Below are positions 1,228-35,061 of a stretch of DNA of 35,941 nt, one piece after another. The stretch comes from Gemmatimonadota bacterium (GTDB lineage Bacteria > Gemmatimonadota > Gemmatimonadetes > Longimicrobiales > Gaopeijiaceae), in the NCBI GenBank assembly GCA_030430625.1, contig JAUIKL010000016.1, positions 1 to 35,941 on the forward strand. Reading direction: 5' to 3'. A model generated the notes under the pieces. It was not told the DNA's origin and made no database searches. It saw nothing but the letters and a program-made list of their open reading frames with translations. The translations under genes and the position numbers were made by a program. Position 1 is the stretch's first letter. Each line of letters opens with the position of its first letter.

Positions 1228-2550
1228 ATGAAAGCACGAACAGGACGTGTCAGCAGCTTTGCGACGGGGCTTCTGTTGGCCATGGTGGCGCCGGTCTTGG
1301 GGCAGACCGGAGCCATCGAGGGGGTCGTACACGACTCGCTGGCCGGGGGCCCGCTCAGCGACGCGGCCGTCTTCCTATGGGAGACCTCCTACCAGGCCGA
1401 CACCGACGACGAGGGTCGATTCCGCATCGAGGGTGTCCCGCCCGGCAGCTACAGCATCCTCTTCTTCCACCGGCGCCTGGGGGAGATGGGGCTGTCCGCT
1501 GGACCCCGCTCGATCGTCGTTGAGCCGGGGCGCACGATCGAGGTCGACCTGGCCATGCCCTCCCGTCGGACGATCACCCGCTCCGACTGCCTCATGGACG
1601 GCCAGCCACCCGAGGGTGGCATCGTGACCGGCCACGTGGTGGACTTCGAGTCGCAGATGAGCCTCGGCGGCGCAGGGGTGACGCTCAGCTGGCAGGAGGC
1701 GGACGACCCGACGCCCGGTCGTATCGACCTTCGCACTGGCCCCGACGGTCGCTTTCATGTGTGCGACGCCCCGAGGGGTGTGCCGATCCTCGTGTCCGCC
1801 GACTTCTACGGTCGACAGAGCCGCCGCCAGGAGATGGTGATCGACGACTCCGGCTTCATCGAGGCCCCGATCTCGGTCGAGCAGCTGGGAACATCCAGGC
1901 TTTCGGGTACGCTGCTCGACCGTGAGAGCGGACGTGGCGTGGAGGGGGCCGAAACGTGGATCCGCGGCACGTACTTCCGCGCTCTGACCGACTCGGACGG
2001 ACACTTCCTCTTCGAAAACGTGCCCGCCGGCACGTACATGCTGATGACCGACCATCTGGCCTACGGGACCAAGATGGACACGCTCGTGGTCCCGGATCGG
2101 CAACGCCTACTCGTCGAGATGCTGCTCGATACCCGACCGATCGAGATCGCCCCCCTGACGGTCACGGCGGACGCGCCCCCCGTCGAACTGGCGCGCCGGC
2201 GCGGTGGCATCGTCATCACCGAGGACGAGATCGACGAGGTGAGGCAACGATCCCGAGACGCGTCCGACATCCTGCGTTCACTCCACGTACCCGGCGTCCT
2301 GGTGCGTCACAACTCGAACGGCACGATCTGTGTCGGTTACATCACCGGGCAGGTGATGATGAACCAGGACGGATGCGTCGAAATGATGATCTACATCAAC
2401 GACGTGAGGGCGACCGACCCCAACCTCGCCCTTCGCCTCCCTCCGGACGCGATCCAGCGGATGGTCCTCTACAAGCCGGTCGAGGCCGGGAACCTGTTCG
2501 GACTGGGTGGCGGCAACGGCGTGTGGATGATCTACACGCGGGGGAACTAG
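1228..2550 (+). CDS. Secreted carboxypeptidase-regulatory-like protein with TonB-plug-like C-terminus and no barrel
   Basis: The product has 440 residues. The ATG at 1228 is chosen over a GTG at 1219 because GAGGTG (1216-1221) lies six bases upstream. A signal peptide covers about residues 1-25, ending ...VLGQ. Three beta-sandwich carboxypeptidase-regulatory-like repeats follow at about 28-105, 130-205 and 224-300, each with a DxxGxFxxxxxPxGxY-type core. Residues 308-440 resemble a TonB-receptor plug ([27 protein letters not shown]). The protein stops there, so no beta-barrel is encoded. It has exactly four cysteines (121, 179, 368, 383), matched in the paralogue at 15237-16583. It is probably periplasmic or outer-membrane associated; the role is unknown. 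Confidence 0.82.
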
Positions 2551-2597
2551 AGGACGGGATTTTGGGTGGTCGCTATCGGGCAGCGGGCGAGCCGTCG

Positions 2598-3158
2598 TCA
2601 GTCCGTCGGCTTTCTCCACTCGACGTCCGGTGCACCGTGCCGGTGATTGGCCAGTCTGGCGAACGCGAAGAGCAGGTCCGCGCATCGGTTCAGCCACGAC
2701 AAGACGGTCGGCGACACCTCGTCGACCTCGCTGAGCGATACGACGTCCCTTTCGGCCCGCCGACATACGGTGCGAGCCAGGTGTAGAGCCGCCCCTGCCG
2801 CCGAGCCGCCGGGCAGGATGAACGCCCGGAGCGCGGGGAGCTCCTCGTCGGCCTCGTCGATCCACGTCTCCATCTCGACGACCCGCTCGGTCGGCAAATC
2901 CGGCGTCTCGGGGCGCCGGCGGCCATCCGCAGGCGGCGGCGTCGCAAGGTCGGCGCCCAGCGTGAAGAGATCGTGCTGAAGCAGGAGCAGACGATCCCGA
3001 ATCGGGCCGTCGGGTAGTTGGGTCACGGCCCAACCGAAGGTGGCGTTCAGCTCGTCGACCGAACCGTAGGCCCGAACACGAATGTGGTCTTTCGACACAC
3101 GACCGCCGCCGAAGAGGGACGTCTGGCCGGCGTCTCCCGTGCGAGTGTAGATCTTCAT
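2598..3158 (-). CDS. PduO-type cob(I)alamin adenosyltransferase
   Basis: This 186-residue cytosolic enzyme transfers the adenosyl group of ATP to cob(I)alamin to make adenosylcobalamin. Family marks in order are the N-terminal TRTGDAGQTSLFGG ATP-binding loop, VDELNATFGWA, the RTVCRRAER motif that helps bind ATP, and LNRCADLLFAFAR near the C-terminus. The length is usual for single-domain MMAB/PduO proteins. It is the last gene of a minus-strand operon. Its ATG overlaps the stop of the 83-residue gene by one base (TGATG), which suggests translational coupling. No cobalamin-dependent enzyme is in view. It belongs to the PduO/MMAB family, not the unrelated CobA/CobO family. Confidence 0.93.
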   Translation of the reverse strand: MKIYTRTGDAGQTSLFGGGRVSKDHIRVRAYGSVDELNATFGWAVTQLPDGPIRDRLLLLQHDLFTLGADLATPPPADGRRRPETPDLPTERVVEMETWIDEADEELPALRAFILPGGSAAGAALHLARTVCRRAERDVVSLSEVDEVSPTVLSWLNRCADLLFAFARLANHRHGAPDVEWRKPTD

Positions 3159-3409
3159 CAGCGAAGCTTCGTCAGCTTTCGGATGCTCTGCGCCTTCTCG
3201 AGCAGCGAAATGGTCTTGTCCGTCGAGTCCTCGTCGGCCGGCATCAGCAGGGAGCGGATGTCCAGAAGCACCTCCAGCTGGAGTTGATCCCGCTGGTAGT
3301 CGAGGTCGAGCTTCGCCATCTGGGAGGCGTCACCGTCACGCTCCGCGGAGGTGAACGCATCGACGTACACCTTCTCCAGACTCTGGAGCACACGGTCTCG
3401 GCTTCTCAC
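3158..3409 (-). CDS. Small helical protein coupled to adenosyltransferase, unknown
   Basis: The product has 83 residues and begins at GTG (3409). It is charged and predicted almost fully helical, with heptad-like hydrophobic spacing and many Lys, Arg, Asp and Glu, so a coiled coil or helical hairpin is likely. It has no signal peptide, no membrane segment and no cysteines. I recognise no family. It sits between an alpha/beta hydrolase (26-base gap) and the cobalamin adenosyltransferase (one-base overlap), so it is co-transcribed and probably co-translated with the latter. An accessory role to one of those enzymes is only inference from position. Confidence 0.6.
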   Translation of the reverse strand: MRSRDRVLQSLEKVYVDAFTSAERDGDASQMAKLDLDYQRDQLQLEVLLDIRSLLMPADEDSTDKTISLLEKAQSIRKLTKLR

Positions 3410-3435
3410 TGGTCGACCCCCTGGCTGCGCTACGG

Positions 3436-4080
3436 CTACACGGTCAGGAGCGCGCGCGCCCCGGGACCCGACTCAAAGTAGCCCCGAACCGCTCCGCGAA
3501 GCTCGTCGAGCCCCCCTGCGAAGTAGTGATCGGAGCCCGGCACACGCACGAGGGAGATGTGGCTGCCGAGGGGTGCGAGTGCCTCGGCGACCTGCGCACC
3601 GCTACCGAACTCGTCCTTCTCTCCCTGGACGACCAGGATCGGCTTCCCGGCGTCGGCCAGAAAGGAGTAGTCGTACCGCTCGTCCAGGTCGACGGGAAGC
3701 CCGAGGCCAAGGAGCGAGGTCACGCGCGCATCGTCGACCCCGACCGATAGGGCGACCATGGACCCGAAGGAGAAGCCGCCGAGGACGATCGGCAGATGGG
3801 GGTACTCGGACTCGACCCAGTCGACGGCGGCCCGAGCGTCATCCTGTTCGCCGACCCCCTCGTCGAAGCTACCCGTGCTCGTACCGACGCCCCGAAAGTT
3901 GAAGCGGAGCGTGATCAGCCCCGCATCGAGGAAGCCCTGCGCGGATCGATACACGGCCTTGGTGTGCATCGTCCCGCCGTGAATCGGGTGGGGGTGGCAC
4001 ATCACCGCCACACCGCGGGGCGTGTCGGTGGGCTGTTTCAACAGGGCCTCGAGGTGCCCGTGATCGACTGGAATCTTCAC
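3436..4080 (-). CDS. Alpha/beta hydrolase (COG2945-like)
   Basis: The product is a 214-residue cytosolic serine hydrolase. The N-terminal CHPHPIHGGTM is the oxyanion-hole region typical of this small-hydrolase group. GGFSFGS carries the nucleophile serine in the GxSxG elbow, EKDEF supplies the likely acid, and GSDHYF the catalytic histidine. The length matches the lidless core family annotated as alpha/beta hydrolase or dienelactone-hydrolase-like. The substrate is unknown; esters or thioesters are plausible. It starts at GTG (4080) and is the first gene of the three-gene minus operon ending with the cobalamin adenosyltransferase. Confidence 0.85.
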   Translation of the reverse strand: MKIPVDHGHLEALLKQPTDTPRGVAVMCHPHPIHGGTMHTKAVYRSAQGFLDAGLITLRFNFRGVGTSTGSFDEGVGEQDDARAAVDWVESEYPHLPIVLGGFSFGSMVALSVGVDDARVTSLLGLGLPVDLDERYDYSFLADAGKPILVVQGEKDEFGSGAQVAEALAPLGSHISLVRVPGSDHYFAGGLDELRGAVRGYFESGPGARALLTV

Positions 4081-4213
4081 ACTCTACGCCGTTGATCTCG
4101 GTGGCCGGTAATCCGGGAAGATCGGGTCAGACGCCGACTTACGGGTGCGGACGCCCTACCCCGGATGTTATCTTCCGCTCACGATCGTGATGGGTCAAGC
4201 CGATGGAGGGAGA

Positions 4214-18236: not shown

Positions 18237-19103
18237 ATGGCGGCCCACACGCTCAGCATCCTCACACATCCGTACCGCCAGCTTCAGCCCGTGACCCGGG
18301 ATCGGGCTCAGCTGAAGGAGGCCGCGCGATTGCCGGGCAGCGCTCTGATCTGGCGGATGGGTCCCGAGAGACGGGAGGGGATCCACGCTCTCGTGGAGAA
18401 TCGACCGGGTGGGTTGTCGTTGATCGCGATCCTCCCGCCAGCCCGAAGCGTCGAGCGGGATCCGGAACTGGTTCGCCTCGTCAACCGCACCCGTCCGCAC
18501 GGTCTGCTGCCTCATCATGGCGAACCCCACCCCACGGACCTGGCCACCGTTCTCTCCCGACCGCCCCTCGACCTCTGTTCGGAGATCACGGACTACCTGG
18601 CCTGGAGAGGACTCGTCGTCGATCGAGATACCGCACAACTCCTCCGTCGCATCGTGGAGCTGTCGGCCGACCTGAGGACAGTGACTGCGTTGGCGCGGGG
18701 CCTCTACATGAGTCGCCGGGCACTCGGTCGCAGGCTGATGACCCGCGGACTCCCCGTCCCTTCGCATTGGCTCCAGATCGCGCGCATCTTGCGCGTGGCG
18801 GTCCGACTGCAGAATTCGGATGCCAGCATCGTGACGCTGGCCTATGCAGCCGGCTACCCCGACGGATTCTCTATGAGCAATCAGATGCATCGTCTCATCG
18901 GCTATCGGCCCAGCCAGCTCCGCGAGTACTTGGGCTGGGAGTGGATCTTCGAAGCCTGGCTGCGGGCGGAGGCGGAGAAGGGAGGCCTGGCTCCCGCATC
19001 CGCCGAGCGGATTCGAGTCGGGCCCAAAGCAAGCGCACCTCCTCCATCGACCTTCCCAGCCGCACGTCCGGGTCGGCCGCGTCGGAATCGGAGTGTGGCG
19101 TGA
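18237..19103 (+). CDS. AraC-type transcriptional regulator
   Basis: The product has 288 residues. ATG 18237 is chosen because GGAGG (18225-18229) lies seven bases upstream; an earlier in-frame GTG (18198) lacks this. The N-terminal ~130 residues form a mixed domain with no recognised family. Residues ~140-245 form the double helix-turn-helix of AraC proteins: LYMSRRALGRRLMTRGLPVP, then SIVTLAYAAGYPDGFSMSNQ and RLIGYRPSQLREYLG. A basic Pro-rich tail follows. Its stop overlaps the start of the STAND regulator (GTGA), so both are made from one message. The pair probably forms one regulatory circuit. Confidence 0.85.
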   Translation: MAAHTLSILTHPYRQLQPVTRDRAQLKEAARLPGSALIWRMGPERREGIHALVENRPGGLSLIAILPPARSVERDPELVRLVNRTRPHGLLPHHGEPHPTDLATVLSRPPLDLCSEITDYLAWRGLVVDRDTAQLLRRIVELSADLRTVTALARGLYMSRRALGRRLMTRGLPVPSHWLQIARILRVAVRLQNSDASIVTLAYAAGYPDGFSMSNQMHRLIGYRPSQLREYLGWEWIFEAWLRAEAEKGGLAPASAERIRVGPKASAPPPSTFPAARPGRPRRNRSVA

Positions 19104-22100
19104 CCGATCCTCCGAGCGTGAGGCTGTTCGGAGAACCAGAGCTTCGCACCGCTCGTGGAGTGGTCGACCTGACGCCCTATCAGCGGGCCTTTCTCAGCAT
19201 CGTGTTCGGAGAGGGGCAAGTCTCGAGGCCGCGGGTAGCCCGACTCGTATGGGGACGGGAAATCGACGGCCGCGCTCGCTCCGGCATCCGCCAACTCCGA
19301 CACCAGGTCAACCGAAGGGCCGGTACGGAAATCATCGGGGCCTGCGGAGATCAACTTGTGGCCGCAGCTGCCGTTCAATCCGATGTGCGAGTCGTCGAAG
19401 CCCACCTGAGCGATGACGAGCCGCACGCAGCCGCGATCGCGATCGCCCGTGGCTTCGTGACCGGAGACTTCGGCCAGGTATCGTCCCGCTTCGTCGACTG
19501 GCGAGACGATCGGGACGGCTCGTTCCGTCGGCGAGCCGAGGGCGCTTGCTCGGACCAGTGGGACCGTGCCATTCGCGACGGCGATTGGACCCGCGCTGTC
19601 GAGGCCGCTCAGGCCCTCGCGCGGCTGGACGGCCCGAGCCCCGAAGGGTACGCGCGGCTCATCGAGGCTCACGCGAGGGCTGGTTACGTTCGTGAGGCCG
19701 AGGCCGCGTATTCGGAATACAGGCGTACGTGCGAACGGGATGAGCAGGCCGAAGCCATGGACTCGCTCATGCTCAGGATCCGCAAGATGGCCCGGGAGTC
19801 GGACGCCACCCGCGGACTGGACGACATACCGTTCGTGGGACGCCAGGACGCTCTGGCTCGGCTCACCGCGGTGGTCGATACCATCGGCGAGGGTGGCTGT
19901 GTCCTGGCGGCCGTGACCGGCGAGGCCGGCATCGGGAAGACCAGACTCCTGCACGAGATCCGCCGTGTCGCGACGCTCGACGGAATACGTTGCCTCAGGG
20001 CATCACCGACCTCACTCGAACAAAGGATCTCGCTGAGTCCGATCTTCGACGCGTTGTCGACCATCGACCTCATGCCACACCTCGAGGCGATCGGCGAGCC
20101 GTGGCGCAGTGTGGCAACCTCGATGATGCCCTCGCGCTGGGACGTAGGCGAACGGCGGGAGCCACCGCCCATCGACGACACGGCACTCAACCGCCGCCTG
20201 CTCGAGTCGTTCGCTCTCCTGTTGCATAGCGTGGCGCAAGATCAGCCCACGCTCCTCATCATCGACGATCTCCACTGGGCCGACACCACCACGTTGTCGC
20301 TTCTCGACTTCTACCGACGTCGATGGGCTGAATCGTCCCTGGGCGTTCTCGTAGCGGCCAGGACCGAGTTGGTGACGGCTGGGTCCGCCGTGGAGGAGCT
20401 ACTGGGGGATGGGGTGGAGTTGTCCGAGTTGACGCCAACGGATGCCACGGCTCTTGCTCGTCACGCCGCAGCTTCCGACTTGAATGACGAGTCCGCGCAG
20501 CAGATCTGCCTGGTAGCGGGCCATCACCCGCTATCCATCGTGGAACTCGCAGCCGAATGGCTGGTGATGGGGGAGGGCCTTCCTTCTATCGTCGGCGTCG
20601 TAAGGCGCCGGCTCGGTCCACTTGGTAAGGTTGCCAGAGACGTCGCTCTGATTCTTGCCGTCGCCGAGCGCCCCGTTGGCGTCGCCGAGCTAACGGCCCT
20701 GAGTGAGCTAGACTACGAGTCCGTGGGTGTCGCAGTCGGCGAACTGGCGTCGGCCAACTTGGTTCGCCTAGACGCAGGCGCTGTCGGGTTCACCCACGGT
20801 CTCTTGCGACAAGCCGTATGTGAACTCGCCCCAGCGGCTTCTCTGATGCTTGCGCACTCAAGGTTCGCTGACCGGCTCGGTCCGTTTGCCGACGAGTCCG
20901 AACTCGCGACTCACTACAGCCGTGCAGGAATGCCCGAGCTGGCGGCCCGTTACGCATGGATCGCTGCTGAGCGAGCCGCGGCGCTGGGCGCGATGTCCGA
21001 CGCTGCCGAACTGTTCCGGCTCGCGGAGAGGAACGAAACAACACCCTCTAGAAAAGCGGAGGCCACGGCCCAGCAGGCGCAGGCGGTGTTCCTCGCGCGT
21101 GACCTAGAGCAGCGACTTCCAATCTTGGCACTCGCCGCAGACCGGCTACGGGTGCACGGAGCCGAAAGGCGAGCCCTGAGGGCAGACCTCCAATTCGTGG
21201 AGGCGGTGCTGTCGGTCGGGCACCTGCATCCAACCGAGACCCTAGCCCGTTTGAAGACGGTTAAAGACAGAGCAGCTACGCTTGACGACTGGGAGGCTGT
21301 GTCGCTGGCACTCGAAGTAGAATTGCGCATTGCGCAGTGGACGAACGATCGAGGACTTGCGAGGGCGGCCCTCCATGCCATGAAAGACATCGCTGGCCGC
21401 GACCGAGACCCCGCTGGTACGGTTGTTTGCCTAATGGGTCTTTCGATGGATGTCATCTTCGGTGAGGCCACCGGCCCGTTCGATGCCGTCAGCGCTGCCC
21501 GCGAGGCCGTTCGGCGAACCGCCTCTGGACTACCGTCCTACCGGCTTAGAGCTCTTCACAGACTACTTCTTGCTCTCCAACTCAGGGGGATGGTGTTCTC
21601 GCCGGAGACCATCGACGCTTTGGGGGAAGCCCGGGACCTTGCCGCAAGGAGCGGGGACGTCAGGACCCGATTGATGATCGAGCACAATCGGGCGGTAGCG
21701 CTCCTGGATTCCGGCGAACTGGACCGCGCGACCGCTCTAACTGACTCGGTGCTTGGACAGTTCGGTAGTGCGGACATGGACCTAACTCGGTTCAACCATT
21801 TCTGTACCCGAGGCGAGATCGCCATCTGGGAGGGTCAGTACGATCTCGGCTTGGCCCAACTTAAGATGGCTAGCACACTGTTGGGGCCTAGCACACCCGA
21901 GTACGCGGTGTCTTTCGTGGAGGCAGGAATTGGGCTCTGCGCGCTCGAGACTGGCCGACTTGGAGAATCGCGGCGTCGAGAGCGTAGGCTTGGTCAGTTG
22001 ACGGTGCCGTTCCTGTTGGACCCATCCGTAGTCCTGGAATTTCGGACTCGACTCCTCGAGCGGCGGGGCGAGGGGCAGGCTGCCACCAATGCCATCGTAG

Positions 22101-22300
22101 ATCGAGCACGTCCGTTTGAGCATCGATCGACGCTACGGTGGCTGAAGCTCGTAGCCTCACACGCACGCCGAGCCACCAGATGGGGCCAGTTGGATAGGGC
22201 TACCGTCGAACGCGCCCGCGACACCGCCGTCCGTCTTGGCCTCGAGCGGCGATCGGAAGAACTCTCTGACCTAGTTCGGACGTCCCAGGCTTCTTGCTAG
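19100..22300 (+). CDS. SARP/BTAD-type STAND ATPase regulator with TPR-like repeats
   Basis: The product has 1066 residues from a GTG overlapping the AraC-type stop. Residues 5-95 resemble a SARP winged-helix domain (VRLFGEPELRTARG, LTPYQRAFLSIVF). Residues 98-235 are BTAD-like helical repeats. A STAND ATPase follows with Walker A GEAGIGKT (274-281) and Walker B LLIIDDLHWAD (385-395), then winged-helix and TPR-like repeats to the end. Such proteins use ATP and ligand binding on the repeats to switch a DNA-binding head. From about 20.4 kb the codons contain more A and T than the N-terminal part. The 3' end overlaps the convergent HD-GYP gene by 30 bases. Confidence 0.85.
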   Translation: MTDPPSVRLFGEPELRTARGVVDLTPYQRAFLSIVFGEGQVSRPRVARLVWGREIDGRARSGIRQLRHQVNRRAGTEIIGACGDQLVAAAAVQSDVRVVEAHLSDDEPHAAAIAIARGFVTGDFGQVSSRFVDWRDDRDGSFRRRAEGACSDQWDRAIRDGDWTRAVEAAQALARLDGPSPEGYARLIEAHARAGYVREAEAAYSEYRRTCERDEQAEAMDSLMLRIRKMARESDATRGLDDIPFVGRQDALARLTAVVDTIGEGGCVLAAVTGEAGIGKTRLLHEIRRVATLDGIRCLRASPTSLEQRISLSPIFDALSTIDLMPHLEAIGEPWRSVATSMMPSRWDVGERREPPPIDDTALNRRLLESFALLLHSVAQDQPTLLIIDDLHWADTTTLSLLDFYRRRWAESSLGVLVAARTELVTAGSAVEELLGDGVELSELTPTDATALARHAAASDLNDESAQQICLVAGHHPLSIVELAAEWLVMGEGLPSIVGVVRRRLGPLGKVARDVALILAVAERPVGVAELTALSELDYESVGVAVGELASANLVRLDAGAVGFTHGLLRQAVCELAPAASLMLAHSRFADRLGPFADESELATHYSRAGMPELAARYAWIAAERAAALGAMSDAAELFRLAERNETTPSRKAEATAQQAQAVFLARDLEQRLPILALAADRLRVHGAERRALRADLQFVEAVLSVGHLHPTETLARLKTVKDRAATLDDWEAVSLALEVELRIAQWTNDRGLARAALHAMKDIAGRDRDPAGTVVCLMGLSMDVIFGEATGPFDAVSAAREAVRRTASGLPSYRLRALHRLLLALQLRGMVFSPETIDALGEARDLAARSGDVRTRLMIEHNRAVALLDSGELDRATALTDSVLGQFGSADMDLTRFNHFCTRGEIAIWEGQYDLGLAQLKMASTLLGPSTPEYAVSFVEAGIGLCALETGRLGESRRRERRLGQLTVPFLLDPSVVLEFRTRLLERRGEGQAATNAIVDRARPFEHRSTLRWLKLVASHARRATRWGQLDRATVERARDTAVRLGLERRSEELSDLVRTSQASC

Positions 22301-28452: not shown

Positions 28453-28845
28453 TCAGCCCTCGGCGCGCTTACCGACGAAGGGAGCCGCTTGGCCCATCTC
28501 GGCAATGTAGGCTTCGCCGACGATCTCGTCCCCATCGACGTCACCTTCGACCTCGACGGTGATCCACTGACCCTGTACCCCGACGTGGAGCAGGAACGAG
28601 ATGATCCCGTCCTCCACGAGGCCATCGCTGACCTGGAGGCTCTCGATCTCGGCCATGGAGCTGGTCGCGGTGCCACTCAGCTCGGACCCGCTCTGAGCGA
28701 AGTCGAAGTCGAAGACGACATCCCCTACGTCGGGCGACGTGACCGTCACGGTCCACTTCCCACTGACGTCCTGAGCCGACGCCGGTAGCGCGAGCGCCAC
28801 CAGAGCGAGCGCTGCGAACACGGTGCTCTTCCAAACTTGCCTCAT
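28453..28845 (-). CDS. Small secreted beta-rich protein, unknown
   Basis: The product has 130 residues. The ATG at 28845 is chosen because a GGAGG tract lies upstream and the residues that follow are a clean signal peptide (VFAALALVALALPASAQ). The mature part is an acidic all-beta sequence (DVSGKWTVTVTSPDVGD, SGSELSGTATS, IVGEAYIAEMG) with the rhythm of lipocalin-like or small beta-barrel proteins. No cysteines and no catalytic motif are visible. It is probably periplasmic or secreted. The 221-base gap behind its start contains no other gene. Confidence 0.75.
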   Translation of the reverse strand: MRQVWKSTVFAALALVALALPASAQDVSGKWTVTVTSPDVGDVVFDFDFAQSGSELSGTATSSMAEIESLQVSDGLVEDGIISFLLHVGVQGQWITVEVEGDVDGDEIVGEAYIAEMGQAAPFVGKRAEG

Positions 28846-29066
28846 CCCTCGTCCTCCATCGGCCGGCGGGTCGACACGAGTGCGGTCGGCCCGCCGCACA
28901 CGTCGTATTCGATTCCTCGGAACCCTACGGGCGTGAGCCCCATCGGGTTCCCCCGGAGGGCCCACGGACCGGTGCCGCGTTCGAGGCACGGGTTCCAGGG
29001 GCGGCTAGAGTAGACTGGTGATCGTGTCCGCCACAACCCGCGCAGCGTACACGCCGTCGACGCGGA

Positions 29067-29798
29067 TCAGTCCAATCGTCTGGCGACCCACACGGTCCGA
29101 TACACCGCCGTGGCCACGGTCCCGACCGCTACGAGCGCAATCAACGCCCACAGGAACACGCCTTCCCGCCACCCCATCGCGCTCGTCAGCGCCGGGTCGA
29201 AGACGCCCCCGAAGCCGACCAGAAGCAGGCGTTCGGCCCGTTGCATGACGCCGACCTTGGCCACGACCCCCAAGCTCTCACCCCGGGCCCGGGCATAGCT
29301 CACGAGAAGAGATCCGCCCATGGCCAGGACCACGACCGCCAGCCCCGGGGCGGAGGCGCGGAAGAACACGGCCAAGCCCACGAACGCACCGACCTCGGCA
29401 AACCGATCGAGGGTGGAGTCGAGGAACGCACCCGTCTCATTGGCCTTCCCCTGGGCTCGGGCGATCCGCCCGTCGAGCACGTCGGCGGCGCCACCGAGCA
29501 GCACGAACCACCCGCCGAGGTTCAGCGATCCGCCGGCGAACGCGTAGCCGGCCATGGCGCCAAAGACGACCCCGAGGACGTTGAAGGCGGTGGGGGAAAG
29601 GCCGAGCGCGAGTGACACGCGCTCGATCGGTCCGATGAACCAGTAGAACCAGGTGCGAACGAAGCCACCCAGGACGAAGCCCCCTCGATCGGCGATCTCG
29701 TGTGGATCGTGGCGGTTCTTGGCCACGACGGCATACACCGGCATCGAAGCGACGGCGGTGCCGAGAATCGAGAGGAAGACCAGCATGTCCGTCCTCAT
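29067..29798 (-). CDS. CDP-alcohol phosphatidyltransferase
   Basis: This 243-residue membrane enzyme has about six helices. It carries the full CDP-alcohol phosphotransferase motif: ADVLDGRIARAQG, then ETGAFLDSTLDR (D-x2-DG-x2-AR-x8-G-x3-D-x3-D). It joins the phosphatidyl group of CDP-diacylglycerol to an alcohol such as inositol phosphate, glycerol phosphate or serine; the acceptor is not clear. The N-terminal helix and the GPIERVSLALGLSP stretch recall the archaetidylinositol and phosphatidylinositol phosphate synthase group. It overlaps the Tam41-like gene by ATGA, so it is translated with the predicted supplier of its substrate. Confidence 0.9.
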   Translation of the reverse strand: MRTDMLVFLSILGTAVASMPVYAVVAKNRHDPHEIADRGGFVLGGFVRTWFYWFIGPIERVSLALGLSPTAFNVLGVVFGAMAGYAFAGGSLNLGGWFVLLGGAADVLDGRIARAQGKANETGAFLDSTLDRFAEVGAFVGLAVFFRASAPGLAVVVLAMGGSLLVSYARARGESLGVVAKVGVMQRAERLLLVGFGGVFDPALTSAMGWREGVFLWALIALVAVGTVATAVYRTVWVARRLD

Positions 29799-30763
29799 GA
29801 GCCGATCTCCTTGCGAGGGCGCGTCACGAGAACGTACACGGCGCGCGGCCAGAGAAAGAGGAGGGGAAGCTTCCGCTCCAGAAAGGTCAGCCGGATCGTC
29901 CTCCCCGTATGTCGCTCGACCTTACGCACCACGTAGGGAAGCCAGTTGGCGAAGGTCATCATGTGCTTCAACCAACGGAGCGTAGCGCGGACCTTCGATC
30001 GCCTGAAGTGCGACGCCCAGTACCGTGACTCGGAGTCCGTGGCGCGCTCGGCGAGCCTATAGCGGTGACCTTCCCGAACCAACCGGCCACCGGCCGCCGC
30101 CTCGACGAGGCCCGGAGCCAGCGCCTCACGGAAGTGATCCTCTTGCGCCTCGAAGATCGCGGTGGCGCGCCCCCGGGACTCGGGTCGAAGTTCACCCCGG
30201 TAGCAGACCTCGAGGAGGCGGCGTCCCAGTTCCGCGGCGTCGAAGGGCCCTTCCATATAGGGTGCCATCCAATCGAGAACCCGGGCGCGCGCATCGGCCA
30301 GGGTTCGGCGCACCCAGCCGTCGTCGGCCGCTCCCCGCGTCCATACGACCCCGACGCGCTGCACCATACGCCCGAGGAGGAAGTGATCCCGCGGCTTCGG
30401 AGCCAGACCGGCTTCGAAGTGTCGGGAGTCGAGCACGAGACACTTCGCAATCCCCCGTTGCCCCTCGTCCGGAGCAAAGGCGATCACGTTCGGAGGAAGA
30501 GCGGTCGCCATCGTCGTCATGAGGGTGACCGGACGGTGGAGCACTTCCCGCCCCGACAGACCTCGGTAGAAAGCGCGGTAGTCATCGACGATGACGACGA
30601 AGTCCAGGGCGCTGTGTCGATCGGGGTTGGTCTTGAGGAGTCGCGACCCGTACATGAGGATGGCACGCACCGAGGAGTCGCTCGCCTCGACGAGTTCGAC
30701 CGCGAGTTCGTAGGCCTCGGGCCAGAGCTCCCGAGCCCGCTCGGACGACGTCGGCCCGGTCAG
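29795..30763 (-). CDS. Tam41-like phosphatidate cytidylyltransferase (CDP-diacylglycerol synthase)
   Basis: The predicted protein has 322 residues and would convert phosphatidate and CTP to CDP-diacylglycerol. It has a nucleotidyltransferase core: LMYGSR (Gly39-Ser40), then ALDFVVIVDDY (Asp54, Asp60, Asp61), as in mitochondrial Tam41/TAMM41. Further matches are KCLVLDSRHF, HFLLGRMVQRVGVVW, VCYRGELRPES (human SYSGDFRM region) and a helix before HFREAL. It is unlike CdsA, which is polytopic. The first usual start codon (GTG 30670) would cut off the helix before GSR. CTG 30763 overlaps the upstream stop as CTGA and restores it. It is flanked by acyltransferase and phosphatidyltransferase genes in one operon. 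Confidence 0.75.
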   Translation of the reverse strand: MTGPTSSERARELWPEAYELAVELVEASDSSVRAILMYGSRLLKTNPDRHSALDFVVIVDDYRAFYRGLSGREVLHRPVTLMTTMATALPPNVIAFAPDEGQRGIAKCLVLDSRHFEAGLAPKPRDHFLLGRMVQRVGVVWTRGAADDGWVRRTLADARARVLDWMAPYMEGPFDAAELGRRLLEVCYRGELRPESRGRATAIFEAQEDHFREALAPGLVEAAAGGRLVREGHRYRLAERATDSESRYWASHFRRSKVRATLRWLKHMMTFANWLPYVVRKVERHTGRTIRLTFLERKLPLLFLWPRAVYVLVTRPRKEIGS

Positions 30764-31596
30764 CCTTCGGTCCCCGAGCTTCGGAGTTCGGCCAACCCCT
30801 CGATCATCTGCTCGCGGACCTTATCCATGAACGGAATCGGGTCGGCCTTCGGGTCCGTCCACTCCATCGATCCGAGGTAGCGAATTCTTCCGTCGATCCC
30901 GGACATACCGGCCATGAAGTCGCGGAAACGGGCCGTCTTCCAGTAGCCGTCGACGACGAGGATGTGCACGGTCCACGGCCCCTGCTGCAGCAGCTTCAGC
31001 AGGCCCCGAACCTTGAACTCACCGATCTCCCCATCGCGGGTGCGCGTACCCTCCGGAAAGAGGCCGATCGGCACCTCGGACTCCCGTGCCTGCTTGGCCA
31101 TCGTCCGGATGCTACGGAGGACCTCTTTCGCGTTTGCTGTAGGGTCGACCACGGGGTATTGATAGAGCCGAACCATATGCGAGATTAGCGGAATTCCGCG
31201 CATGTAGCGGGCTCGGGTCACGATCCGGGGATAGCCCCCCTTCACGCTTCGGACCATGAGCGGGATGTCCATGATCGACTGATGGTTCATCAGGATCATG
31301 GTCCGGGGTGCGCAGGGAATGACTCGAGGCGGGTCCTCGATGCCAACGCCCCCGATCGTGCGAAGCGGGCTCACCACCAGAGAACCCATCAGGTTGATCC
31401 ACCTCCCGAGCACCGGGATCCGGCGGGTCGGACGTAACCAGACCCAGGCCACGATCACGGTCCTCTGAACGAGGTCGCTGATGAGGAAGCCGAAGGAGAT
31501 GAATCCCAGGGCCAGGAAGCCGCGGAGCTTCAAAGCGGTGAGGTCCCCGATTTGTTGAGTACAGCGGTAGAGATTTGGAACGCTAACCGGATCCAT
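30760..31596 (-). CDS. plsC: PlsC-like 1-acyl-sn-glycerol-3-phosphate acyltransferase
   Basis: The product has 278 residues and an N-terminal membrane helix (about 24-55). MNHQSIMDIPL is the catalytic HxxxxD box and LFPEGTRTRDGE the substrate-binding FPEGTR motif. It acylates lysophosphatidate to phosphatidate at the inner membrane. It is the first gene of the minus operon and feeds the Tam41-like enzyme. The ATG at 31596 has no Shine-Dalgarno and lies only 23 bases from the divergent ATG at 31620. A TTG at 31533, with GGGGA nine bases upstream, may be the true start and would leave AT-richer DNA for promoters. Confidence 0.9.
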   Translation of the reverse strand: MDPVSVPNLYRCTQQIGDLTALKLRGFLALGFISFGFLISDLVQRTVIVAWVWLRPTRRIPVLGRWINLMGSLVVSPLRTIGGVGIEDPPRVIPCAPRTMILMNHQSIMDIPLMVRSVKGGYPRIVTRARYMRGIPLISHMVRLYQYPVVDPTANAKEVLRSIRTMAKQARESEVPIGLFPEGTRTRDGEIGEFKVRGLLKLLQQGPWTVHILVVDGYWKTARFRDFMAGMSGIDGRIRYLGSMEWTDPKADPIPFMDKVREQMIEGLAELRSSGTEG

Positions 31597-31619: not shown

Positions 31620-32291
31620 ATGGTAACTGACGACTACACCTACTACGGTTTCGACCTCTGTATCGGCGGCTACTTCGAAATGCCGACCGCCGACGCACGG
31701 AAGCTCCTGCCCGATCACCTGGAACCGGTCGAGGTCCAACACGAGCGGAGCATCCTCGCTATCACCGCGTTCCACTTCAACGAGAGCATGGTGGGCGAGT
31801 ACGACGAGGTCGTCCTCGCCGTCGTCGTGCCCCCGATGGTCGAACCGGGCAAGCCGCTTCCCAAGGCAGCGTTCTACCCCTTCATGGTCGGTACGTCGAC
31901 CGAAGCCTCGCGTGAGCACGCCATCGAGCGGTGGGCGCTGCCGCACTACATGAAGGACGTCGACGTCGACTTCACTCAGGACGGGGATCAGATGACGGTC
32001 ACCGTCACCGACGACGGTGCACCGGTCATGGAGATGACCGTCACCGGACGCGAGAGTGTGCCGGCCGGGAACACCTACCATTGCTTCACCGTCGAGCCCG
32101 ACACCCGGTACAAGGTGAACATCCTCATGGAAGCGGACCACACCGAGCACGAGGAGGAGACCGGCTCCCTCACACTGCACGAGCACCCGATGACCGAGGG
32201 TCTCGACCTCGACGACGTCAACTCCTACCCCTTCCGTGAGGAGTGGTACGGGAAAGGCCTTCAGACGTTCGACCTGATGGTGACGTTCTGA
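31620..32291 (+). CDS. Acetoacetate decarboxylase-like protein
   Basis: The product is a 223-residue cytosolic protein. The layout of short beta strands with MPTADARKLLPDHLEPVEV, then ITAFHF, ...VVLAVVVPP and ERWALPHYMKDVDVDF resembles the acetoacetate decarboxylase superfamily, where a lysine after a Gly/Pro-containing loop forms the Schiff base. Here a lysine sits in PHYMKD, but its alignment to the catalytic Lys is uncertain. The substrate is unknown. No ribosome site precedes the ATG. It overlaps the diacylglycerol kinase gene by CTGA or more, so it is co-transcribed with lipid metabolism. The function is open. Confidence 0.6.
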   Translation: MVTDDYTYYGFDLCIGGYFEMPTADARKLLPDHLEPVEVQHERSILAITAFHFNESMVGEYDEVVLAVVVPPMVEPGKPLPKAAFYPFMVGTSTEASREHAIERWALPHYMKDVDVDFTQDGDQMTVTVTDDGAPVMEMTVTGRESVPAGNTYHCFTVEPDTRYKVNILMEADHTEHEEETGSLTLHEHPMTEGLDLDDVNSYPFREEWYGKGLQTFDLMVTF

Positions 32292-33232
32292 GCGGGAAGC
32301 GACACTACGTCATCTTCAACCCCGCCTCGGGTCGCGGCCGGGGCGGGGCTCGCATCGAGAAGTACCGGCAGCTACTCACGGAGCACATCCCCGACGTGAC
32401 GTTCGGGACGACCGATCGCCCGGGTGGGGAGCGCGTGCTCGCGGAGCAGGCGATCGCCGACGGGTACGAGGTGGTCGTGGCGGTCGGCGGAGACGGGACG
32501 TGGAGCAACGTGGCGGACCGCGTCCTCGCGGTCGGTACGCCCGAAACGACGCTGGGTATTCTTCCGAGCGGTACCGGCAACGACTTCGGACGCAACTTCG
32601 GGTACGATCCGAAGAATCCCGAGGAGGCGGTTCGGGTCCTGGCGCACGGGGCTACGCGCCAGATCGACGTGGGTCGCCTCGAGACCCCGACGGCCTCGGA
32701 GCACCATCCCGATCTCGTCGAGCCACGGTACTTCCTGAACCTGATCGGCTTCGGCTTCGACATTGCAGTGATCGACGCCGCCGAAGGGGCCCGCTTCCTC
32801 AGGGGAGAGTTGCTCTACAAGGTCACGGCGCTGCAGCAGCTCTTCCGGTTTCCCGGTATCTCGGCCTCCGTTCGCGCCGGATCCGGCACCTCGGGTGACG
32901 GGCAGCAGCTGATGCTCACGGTGTCCAACGGTCGCTTTTTCGGTGGCGGCTTCCCGATTGCGCCGGGTGCGACGGTGGTGGACGGTCGGCTCCACGCCTG
33001 CCTCATCGGTGACGCCCCGCCACTGACTCGGCTCAAGCTCTTCAACCTGGCCGAGCGCGGTCGACACATCGAGTCGGATCGCGTGCGCATCATCGACGAC
33101 GAGAGCTTCGCACTCACCTTCCCCGAGCCACCGCGTTTCGAGATGGACGGGGATGTGCGCCGGGCCGACACGTCCACCCTCGAGGTGCGCTGCCTGCGCG
33201 GGGCCCTGCGGGTCGCGGCTCCCGAGGTCTGA
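32288..33232 (+). CDS. Diacylglycerol/lipid kinase (DagK/YegS family)
   Basis: The product is a 314-residue cytosolic kinase with the family motifs FNPASGRGRG, VVVAVGGDGTWSNV and LGILPSGTGNDFGRN, and the C-terminal beta domain (LTVSNGRFFGGGFPIAPGA, FEMDGDVRRA). It phosphorylates diacylglycerol to phosphatidate, or a related lipid alcohol. CTG 32288 overlaps the upstream TGA (CTGA) and gives the usual short lead before VIFNP. GTG 32243 is the nearest standard start; it would overlap by 49 bases and its purine tract is too close. It complements the divergent acyltransferase/Tam41 operon by returning diacylglycerol to phosphatidate. Confidence 0.9.
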   Translation: MSGKRHYVIFNPASGRGRGGARIEKYRQLLTEHIPDVTFGTTDRPGGERVLAEQAIADGYEVVVAVGGDGTWSNVADRVLAVGTPETTLGILPSGTGNDFGRNFGYDPKNPEEAVRVLAHGATRQIDVGRLETPTASEHHPDLVEPRYFLNLIGFGFDIAVIDAAEGARFLRGELLYKVTALQQLFRFPGISASVRAGSGTSGDGQQLMLTVSNGRFFGGGFPIAPGATVVDGRLHACLIGDAPPLTRLKLFNLAERGRHIESDRVRIIDDESFALTFPEPPRFEMDGDVRRADTSTLEVRCLRGALRVAAPEV

Positions 33233-33972: not shown

Positions 33973-34360
33973 AGACAGCGCCGCGAGGCGCCAGGTATCA
34001 CGAGAAGATGTCCGCGAACCCTTGGGCGCCGTGGAGGGAAAGCACCCCGAAGCGGGCGCCATCGACCTCGACCGGGTCATTCACGAACGTGTGCGCCTGG
34101 GCATCGTCAGCGCTTTGGCGGTCAATGGATCCCTGACCTTCACGGACCTGCGTGACCTCCTCGGCATCACGGACGGAAACCTGAGCGCTCACGCTCGACG
34201 GCTCGAAGAGGCCGACTACGTCGTGTGCGACAAGTCGTACGAGGGACGCACACCGAAGACGGAGTACTCCCTCACGAAGACGGGGCGCGCCGAGTTCGCC
34301 GCCTACCTGGACCACATGGAGGCCATCATTCACGCCACTCGGCAGACAGGTCGGAGTTGA
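33962..34360 (+). CDS. Winged-helix transcriptional regulator (PF13601-like, MarR/ArsR type)
   Basis: The product has 132 residues and starts at an ATG with GGAGG four bases upstream (33953-33957). A charged N-terminal extension (1-35) precedes the w[53 protein letters not shown], then the wing [16 protein letters not shown]. This is the small DNA-binding family often found beside a membrane protein. It probably binds the palindromes at 33307-33327. The next gene, uppS, starts nine bases after its stop, so it is in the same transcript or relies on read-through. Confidence 0.88.
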
Positions 34361-34368
34361 GCAGCCCC

Positions 34369-35061
34369 ATGACTCACGTCGCGATCATCATGGACGGCAA
34401 CGGTCGATGGGCCACGGCCCGGGGTCGGCCGAGAGAGTACGGTCACCGTCGGGGAGCCGAGTCCGTCCGTCATGTCGTCGAGGCCGCACCCGACCTCGGG
34501 ATCGATACCCTCACGCTGTATGCCTTCTCGTCGGACAACTGGAAGCGTCCGACGACCGAGGTTTCGGTCCTCATGAAGCTGTTCTCGCGGTACCTGCGGT
34601 CGGAAACGCCGAAGCTCTTGAACAATGGCGTGCGCTTGCAGGTCGTCGGGCGAAGAGATCGACTGGCTCCGAACCTCGTACGGCAGATCGAGGCGTCCGA
34701 GGACGCGACCCGAAGCCAAACGCGTCTGCTGCTCCGGCTCGCCGTCGACTATTCCAGTCGAGACCTCCTGCTCAAAGCAGTCCGCGCGGCCGTCGCGGCA
34801 TCGGATCTCGAGCGGCAGGACATGTCGACCCTCCTCGGAGAGGCGATGCACGGGGACGGCTCGGCGCCGGACGTGGACCTTCTGATTCGGACGGGAGGAG
34901 AGCGCAGGCTCAGTGACTTCCTCCTCTGGGAGTGCGCGTATGCGGAACTCCTCTTCACGCCGGTCATGTGGCCCGACTACGACGGAGCGCACCTGGCCGA
35001 GGCACTCGCCGACTTCCGGAGTCGAGAGCGGCGTTTCGGAGAGGTGGCGGCGGCCTCCTAG
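34369..35061 (+). CDS. uppS: Undecaprenyl diphosphate synthase (cis-prenyltransferase)
   Basis: This 230-residue cytosolic, membrane-associated enzyme extends farnesyl diphosphate with isopentenyl diphosphate to C55, the lipid carrier for peptidoglycan and other envelope sugars. [15 protein letters not shown] carries the catalytic Asp9. [19 protein letters not shown] and [18 protein letters not shown] (substrate Arg and Asp) follow, and the end is short. The ATG at 34369 gives the standard N-terminus; a TTG at 34357 overlapping the wHTH stop as TTGA is an alternative. It lies downstream of the wHTH gene and convergent with the Ada-type gene. Confidence 0.94.

Follow-up and report, generated by a model that had tools for sequence, protein, structure and literature searches.

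The window analysed here is a stretch of 35,941 nucleotides from a Gemmatimonadota bacterium (contig C244 of a 3.46-Mb genome, G000, assembled in 294 contigs and 87.4% complete), and the subject of this work is a cluster of three minus-strand open reading frames (ORFs) near its right end. The middle gene encodes a nucleotidyltransferase-like protein, for which the name TAM is used throughout. It is placed between a PlsC-like acyltransferase gene and a gene for a cytidine diphosphate (CDP)-alcohol phosphotransferase, and Pfam matches bear out both flanking assignments of the original prediction, which had been made from the letters alone (Table 1). We propose that TAM is probably a peripheral cytidine triphosphate (CTP):lipid-phosphate cytidylyltransferase of the Tam41/CpgC type that feeds an inositol-lipid synthase. 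Homology, active-site conservation, gene order and co-occurrence are reported below as observed; the activity, substrate and product of TAM are inferred from them.

Table 1. Features of the TAM locus (window positions) and of a linked gene pair elsewhere in the genome (positions in stretch L117, G000:C268)
Feature	Position	Strand	Evidence or remark
PlsC-like acyltransferase	30760..31596	-	Acyltransferase PF01553 E 2.7e-13; upstream of TAM in 38/44 loci
Tam41/CpgC-like nucleotidyltransferase (TAM), 322 aa from inferred CTG start	29795..30763	-	ORF, alignment, profiles, AlphaFold2 (AF2) model
CDP-alcohol phosphotransferase, phosphatidylinositol-phosphate (PIP)-synthase type (class A)	29067..29798	-	CDP-OH_P_transf PF01066 E 8.2e-11; PDB matches
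CTGA, PlsC stop overlapping inferred CTG start of TAM	30760..30763	-	ATGA/GTGA/TTGA here in 29/38 relatives
ATGA, TAM stop overlapping phosphotransferase start, exactly 4 bases	29795..29798	-	Sequence
Nucleotidyltransferase core, residues 31-62: YGS (G39, S40) and AxD (D54)	30578..30673	-	Invariant 40/40 in A1, 22/22 in A2
Lys107, aligned with Tam41 Lys (IIKYG)	30443..30445	-	Invariant in A1 and A2
Arg132 (LLGRMVQ), aligned with Arg of Tam41 LAGRFQKP	30368..30370	-	Invariant in A1 and A2
E191-x-R193 (CYRGELRPE), aligned with Tam41 SYLGDIR	30185..30193	-	Invariant in A1 and A2
C-terminal helical region, residues 243-322, common to CpgC-position proteins	29798..30037	-	Outside the part aligned with Tam41
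Acetoacetate-decarboxylase-like protein, divergent neighbour	31620..32291	+	PF06314 E 3.8e-9; present in 40/44 loci
YegS/diacylglycerol kinase (DAGK)-type lipid kinase, divergent neighbour	32243..33232	+	PF00781 E 1.2e-28; present in 36/44 loci
Alpha-oxoamine synthase	L117 580-2088	-	Overlaps decarboxylase-like gene; serine-palmitoyltransferase-like, below cut-offs
Acetoacetate-decarboxylase-like gene, running off contig	L117 8-589	-	Partner of alpha-oxoamine synthase

The 4-base overlaps originally described on both sides of TAM proved exact on the downstream side, while on the upstream side the overlap exists only with a CTG start. The first standard start in the TAM frame is a GTG at 30670, approximately 90 bases past the end of PlsC; it coincides with the first core strand, and its use would remove the N-terminal helix of the AF2 model. 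A PlsC gene adjoins TAM in 38 relatives, and in 29 of these a 4-base overlap joins the PlsC stop to the TAM start (ATGA in 15, GTGA in 12 and TTGA in two). Because these relatives overlap the PlsC stop at this place and the window has CTGA there, a CTG start of the window TAM is plausible.

Single-sequence searches of Pfam, NCBIfam and PDB with the window TAM gave nothing useful, and the relationships described here come from two alignments, A1 (40 TAM-family sequences with 28 invariant columns) and A2 (22 sequences including four proteins found at the CpgC position in other bacteria). The motifs GSR, LDFVVIVDDY, LLGRMVQR and CYRGEL, from which a Tam41-type enzyme had been predicted, are present in the protein and contain invariant columns of A1. 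When the members of A1 were scanned singly at E<=1, PF09139 (the Tam41 family) was matched by 14/40, Polbeta by 16/40 and Adenyl_transf by 11/40; in a scan of 20 relatives, seven matched PF09139 at E<=0.1, and only L051 (41% identical), with 27.6 bits over residues 23-220, passed the curated cut-off of 24 bits. In L050 and L051 the PF09139 match runs from residue 23 to residue 221, and in five other relatives it covers parts between 94 and 225. With the A1 profile, Schizosaccharomyces pombe Tam41 was matched in PDB collinearly over profile positions 11-216 (E 0.041), and a second PDB profile search matched it over approximately 200 positions (E 0.0098). In profile-profile alignment by hhalign, A1 against two Tam41 fragments scored 38.5 over 188 columns, compared with 21.9 for the best of 200 column shuffles and 10.8 for the reversed template; the score against S. 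pombe Tam41 alone was 30.7. A2 against Tam41 scored 50.8 (probability 91.7, E 7.8e-7, 185 columns), and the four CpgC-position proteins by themselves scored 29.0, with 19.7 as the best of 60 shuffles. We conclude that TAM is, as judged from these alignments, a distant Tam41 homologue, and that this particular member lies beyond the reach of the Pfam model. The homology claimed originally is thus upheld by the L051 match, the 14 members matching PF09139, the collinear profile match and the one-acid active site described next. The statement that TAM is not CdsA also holds, with no match to CTP_transf_1/CdsA (PF01148) at E<=1 in the window protein or in the relatives scanned.

Seven residues (G39, S40, D54, K107, R132, E191 and R193) do not vary in either alignment and align with counterparts in Tam41, which has Asp for Glu191. 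The usual DxD motif reads AxD in 40/40 sequences of A1, i.e., the first Asp is absent and D54 is invariant, and the four CpgC-position rows of A2 are likewise without an acid at the first position. According to PMC11646218, Tam41 has kept a single acid of the usual three, and the apparent one-acid active site of TAM is in keeping with that statement if the third acid position has been assigned correctly. In the C-terminal region K266, Y277, K281, R284, G287 and P300 are invariant in A2. The AF2 model of TAM (predicted local distance difference test, pLDDT, 91.3; predicted template-modelling score, pTM, 0.89) places amphipathic helices at 243-286 and a predicted hydrophobic helix at about 300-313; 11-residue hydrophobic moments reach 0.74 and 0.77 in helices 243-270 and 274-286, a value of 0.77 being reached also in helix 176-189.

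Sampling 298 genomes of the phylum gave TAM relatives at E<=1e-3 in 51, a count that includes G194, a weak partial match (E 2.6e-4) that was not reproduced in a later search. The 44 TAM loci read represent 41 distinct ones (L002/L063, L003/L061 and L004/L062 are the same stretches), and some missing genes are due to contig ends. A phosphotransferase gene lies 3' of TAM in 43/44 loci, and the arrangement is accordingly not a chance one. The genome was also found to carry CdsA (PF01148 E 1.9e-56, G000:C245:182493-183338), so TAM is no substitute for it; PF01148 is present in 296/298 genomes and in 51/51 TAM carriers, and the idea that TAM compensates for CdsA loss was rejected on this ground.

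The partner phosphotransferase is of the PIP-synthase type. The top PDB matches of this class A protein are phosphatidylinositol or PIP synthases (5d91, E 4.8e-17; 6h53, E 6e-15), and in the 44 class-A sequences compared (the window and 43 from TAM loci) residues D68, D71, D89, D93, R94, S132, Y133, R152, R155 and R195 of Mycobacterium tuberculosis PgsA1 are identical throughout; K135 is Arg in all 44 and R137 is R or K. PMC4634129 and PMC6506517 describe these PgsA1 residues as metal-binding or discuss them in connection with inositol phosphate. A second type, class B, adjoins the inositol-phosphate synthase gene in the 10 genomes for which both positions are listed, and six class B loci were read, i.e., five of those ten plus that of G017, where an N-terminal motif identifies the neighbour. 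Among 73 family genomes, 27 have class A only, 29 class B only, 12 both and five neither (Fisher 4e-6). Myo-inositol-phosphate synthase is present in the window genome as well. Because its locus there is without class B, the role of the usual PIP synthase is probably filled by class A in this genome. At that locus (L100; G000:C132, about 1500-4107) a small ORF occupies the place of class B, and the neighbours are genes that we take to be prmC-like and tmk-like.

TAM and class A occur together: a search of 47 genomes for the two found 27 with both, 19 with neither, one with class A alone (at a contig edge) and none with TAM alone. Inositol-phosphate synthase is found in all 51 TAM carriers (Fisher 0.02), and as a marker for TAM it was considered weakened since it occurs in 274/298 genomes.

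Relatives of TAM in other bacteria were searched by tblastn against 72,556 plasmid records. Fifteen records matched (12 Roseomonas, two Pseudomonas and one Qipengyuania; E 6e-12 to 1e-3, the best being 6e-12 in Pseudomonas and 5e-11 in Roseomonas), all on genes called hypothetical, with 6/15 matches also touching a glycosyltransferase. The surroundings were read in four of the 15 records (two Roseomonas, one Pseudomonas and one Qipengyuania), and in all four a lipid kinase gene directly precedes the TAM relative. In the two Roseomonas loci the order is phosphoesterase, CDP-alcohol phosphotransferase, DAGK-family kinase and TAM, then an aminotransferase-type gene and an acyl carrier protein gene; the aminotransferase-type gene is directly after TAM in one locus and one gene further in the other, and in the first Roseomonas it passes the NCBIfam serine-palmitoyltransferase cut-off (625 vs 500 bits). 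In Caulobacter, the order reported is CC_1158 phosphoesterase, CC_1159 CpgA, CC_1160 CpgB ceramide kinase, CC_1161 CpgC and CC_1162 spt (PMC11324152), and the order in both Roseomonas loci matches it, cpgA-cpgB-cpgC included. Caulobacter CpgC itself is linked to TAM by gene order only. In Qipengyuania no further gene of such a cluster was seen within 7 kb, save a DUF2141 gene as in Roseomonas. The Gemmatimonadota TAM sequences aligned with the four CpgC-position proteins over 280 columns (hhalign probability 99.9, E 1e-35), and these proteins are 23-29% identical to the window TAM. CpgC is needed for conversion of ceramide-1-phosphate to ceramide phosphoglycerate by a mechanism that papers of 2025 and 2026 call unidentified, and an activated ceramide was suggested for it from an InterPro hit in 2024 (PMC11324152).

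The window cluster is arranged differently from those of CpgC. Its kinase is divergent from TAM, where a CpgC cluster would have TAM directly after the ceramide kinase with lptFG and CpgA nearby, and lptFG is absent from the 20 window ORFs, all outside 1-15 kb, that were searched with Pfam. BLAST finds no similarity between the window kinase and that of Roseomonas, and the proposal that the window kinase is a CpgB orthologue is for that reason unsupported. As a separate observation, Pseudomonas sp. JS425 plasmid pPNP1 (L125, 52000-96000) carries a phosphosphingolipid-like cluster among insertion sequences and a class 1 integron, with aminotransferase-type, carrier protein, epimerase, acyl-AMP ligase, kinase, CpgC-like, lptFG, phosphotransferase and cytidylyltransferase genes.

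A possible sphingoid connection was also seen within the phylum. A serine-palmitoyltransferase model was searched in 51 carriers and 24 non-carriers, the latter chosen by us, with a cut-off of 500 bits. The synthase matches that were fetched are of two kinds, one at least 57% identical to one of three references and the others 34-42% identical. A decarboxylase-like gene lies directly 3' of the first kind in 50/50 cases and is not found with the 34-42% kind. The synthase and decarboxylase-like pair is present in 47/51 carriers (47/50 without G194) and in 3/24 non-carriers (Fisher 1e-11), these being genomes of one phylum and not independent counts; it is present in 0/10 class-B-only genomes searched, and in 20/51 carriers it is divergent from TAM at a distance of 0.6-1.2 kb. 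Four weaker matches in the non-carriers G004, G010 and G019 (251-294 bits) were counted outside the group by score alone. An earlier count made by score alone (>=300 bits: 49/51 carriers, 4/24 non-carriers) was dropped, having mixed the two synthase kinds. The best PDB match of the synthase in L121 is a serine palmitoyltransferase (280 bits, next type 254). The paired decarboxylase-like gene has a paralogue in the divergent neighbour of TAM at 31620-32291 (37% identity, L120 copy). A small secreted-looking protein encoded at 28453-28989 (-), without a Pfam match, has relatives in 10/44 TAM loci (eight distinct), and another relative of it stands 3' of the pair in L121 (E 2e-20).

In the mechanism that we propose, TAM would use CTP to attach cytidine monophosphate (CMP) to a lipid phosphate, with a CDP-lipid and pyrophosphate as products, and the class A phosphotransferase would then swap CMP for inositol phosphate, supplied by the myo-inositol-phosphate synthase of the genome, to give a lipid with an inositol-phosphate head. 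The PlsC-like acyltransferase and the divergent YegS-type kinase may help to supply the lipid phosphate, and the serine-palmitoyltransferase-like synthase would make its backbone if the phosphate is of the ceramide type.

A number of results weigh against this proposal. The window protein has no PF09139 match at E<=1, so that the PF09139 search named as a check of the original prediction failed for the window protein itself and succeeded for its relative L051. The same search of the window genome gave 0 matches at E<=10, and of the 298 genomes searched directly none had a match over the cut-off and nine had one at E<=10, of which seven were at TAM places and two looked like chance; almost all relatives were missed. 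None of the four CpgC-position proteins matches PF09139 at E<=1, and Caulobacter gave no signal in PF09139 control searches. In the PDB profile searches a generic nucleotidyltransferase, 9xbd, did as well as Tam41 or better (E 0.039 with A1), its match covering positions 8-56 with A1 and the first ~60 overall, and the Firmicutes Tam41 fragment aligned alone with A1 scored 19.7, below the best shuffle of the pair. The class A phosphotransferase remains under the NCBIfam PIP synthase equivalog cut-off (98.2 vs 170 bits), as it does under that of the archaetidylinositol model (130 vs 180 bits). PlsC was not found beside TAM in 6/44 loci. No synthase match reaches 500 bits in the 75 genomes searched for serine palmitoyltransferase, and four of the 51 carriers (G075, G127, G194 and G265) are without the synthase pair.

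The nature of the lipid phosphate is the point on which the CDP-lipid mechanism divides, and here we lean slightly to a ceramide-type phosphate, with phosphatidate as a close alternative. It is quite possible that TAM makes CDP-ceramide or a CDP-long-chain base, from which class A would form ceramide phosphoinositol phosphate, with the phosphate coming, as proposed, from the YegS-type kinase and the PlsC-like protein serving as an acyltransferase. Such a route is favoured by the strong association of the synthase pair with TAM carriers, by the serine palmitoyltransferase that is the best PDB match of one synthase member, by the TAM relatives that occupy the place of cpgC (one of them, in Roseomonas, next to a serine palmitoyltransferase scoring over its cut-off), and by the presence of CdsA in every carrier. 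On the other hand, NCBIfam scores the synthase almost equally as bioF (356-364 bits for bioF and 337-367 for serine palmitoyltransferase in five members, none over cut-off), the window kinase does not resemble that of Roseomonas in BLAST, the association comes from non-independent genomes of one phylum with a chosen set of 24 non-carriers, and no ketosphinganine reductase or known ceramide synthase was identified, no search aimed at them having been made. With phosphatidate as substrate, TAM would be a second, dedicated CDP-diacylglycerol (CDP-DAG) synthase, fed by PlsC and supplying phosphatidylinositol-phosphate synthesis. We regard this as possible, if slightly less likely: the PlsC-like gene is upstream in 38/44 loci (29 with the 4-base overlap), phosphatidate is the known substrate of Tam41 (PMC7018664, PMC6362211) and PIP synthases use CDP-DAG (PMC4634129), but with CdsA in 51/51 carriers a second CDP-DAG synthase has no obvious need, and the linked serine-palmitoyltransferase-like pair would be left unexplained. 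The self-contained route from phosphatidate through CDP-DAG to phospholipid, which the original prediction had read from the three genes, is unsupported because CdsA is present in the genome and in all 51 carriers and because the sphingoid linkage and the CpgC-position relatives point at least as much to a ceramide-type lipid.

Two further explanations place TAM outside the CDP-lipid mechanism. TAM could activate soluble inositol phosphate to CDP-inositol in place of a lipid; the genome has an inositol-phosphate synthase, and a route of this kind, through CDP-inositol, was proposed for clusters of Bacteroides/Prevotella (PMC9246714). However, that proposal concerns another nucleotidyltransferase family, TAM aligns with an enzyme of lipid phosphates, and its conserved C-terminal region has predicted amphipathic helices, which together make a soluble substrate very unlikely. 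It is still more improbable that TAM is an unrelated polymerase-beta-type nucleotidyltransferase (e.g., a relative of aminoglycoside adenylyltransferases) whose likeness to Tam41 is limited to the common core. The Polbeta and Adenyl_transf matches of the A1 members, which speak for such an origin, lie within the first ~85 residues where their extent was seen, as against residues 23-221 for PF09139 in L050 and L051; Tam41 aligns over about 190 columns, DxD is AxD in every A1 sequence, and what is conserved around TAM in the majority of loci is lipid genes and the decarboxylase-like gene.

Two other genes of the window may be mentioned. An undecaprenyl-diphosphate-synthase-type gene at 34225-35061 (+) (PF01255 E 2.4e-75) lies downstream of the divergent kinase and is also found in stretches L001 and L003, and a 1177-aa ORF with an AAA_16 ATPase domain is located at 18767-22300 (+).

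A bacterial Tam41 as such is not new and is already in print (PMC11646218), where Kimura et al. 2022 is cited for a Firmicutes Tam41 that makes CDP-DAG. In the literature searched, Tam41 and Gemmatimonad were nowhere found together, and the term CDP-ceramide was found nowhere. The Gemmatimonadota TAM family forms a bridge between Tam41, a known maker of a CDP-lipid, and the CpgC-position proteins of sphingolipid clusters, and it suggests a testable answer to the question of the CpgC reaction, which a 2026 preprint still calls unidentified. If CDP-ceramide is made, a CDP-activated sphingolipid route would exist. As a tentative extension, it is possible that the Tam41/CpgC family includes CDP-ceramide synthases that act on ceramide-1-phosphate and CTP, leading in Gemmatimonadota to inositol phosphosphingolipids via a PIP-synthase paralogue and, by an equivalent reaction of Caulobacter CpgC, toward ceramide phosphoglycerate. 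On this view an older family of CTP:lipid-phosphate enzymes with differing backbones would include mitochondrial Tam41 as one of its branches. We predict that carrier Gemmatimonadota make inositol phospholipids via a module that replaces the usual PIP synthase in many carriers.

Compared with known systems, TAM shares with mitochondrial Tam41/TAMM41 (PF09139; PDB 6ig2, 6ig4) a nucleotidyltransferase core with one acid, Lys, GR and [DE]xR in the same order over ~190 collinear columns, but the two are only 18% identical in the profile alignment, the window protein is under Pfam detection, and TAM has a conserved C-terminal region unaligned with Tam41 and a different operon context. The Firmicutes Tam41 (PDB 7ecd, which we take to be the structure of Kimura et al. 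2022) is like TAM in being bacterial and of the Tam41 type; unlike the TAM family it is close to fungal Tam41 (E 1e-41), and its direct match to A1 is weak. CdsA (PF01148) would give the same product if the substrate of TAM is phosphatidate, whereas it belongs to an unrelated integral membrane family and is encoded by a separate gene. The class A phosphotransferase has all four catalytic Asp residues and most of the inositol-phosphate pocket of the PIP synthases (PgsA1, 6h53; RsPIPS, 5d91), and differs from them in Arg at K135, Ala at P153, an extra N-terminal part and scores under the NCBIfam cut-offs. With CpgC (Caulobacter CC_1161/CCNA_01219 and the plasmid proteins of Roseomonas, Pseudomonas and Qipengyuania), TAM has in common the invariant residues, seen in the plasmid proteins, and the adjoining lipid kinase; what sets the window cluster apart from the CpgC clusters is the presence of PlsC and of a partner of the PIP-synthase type.

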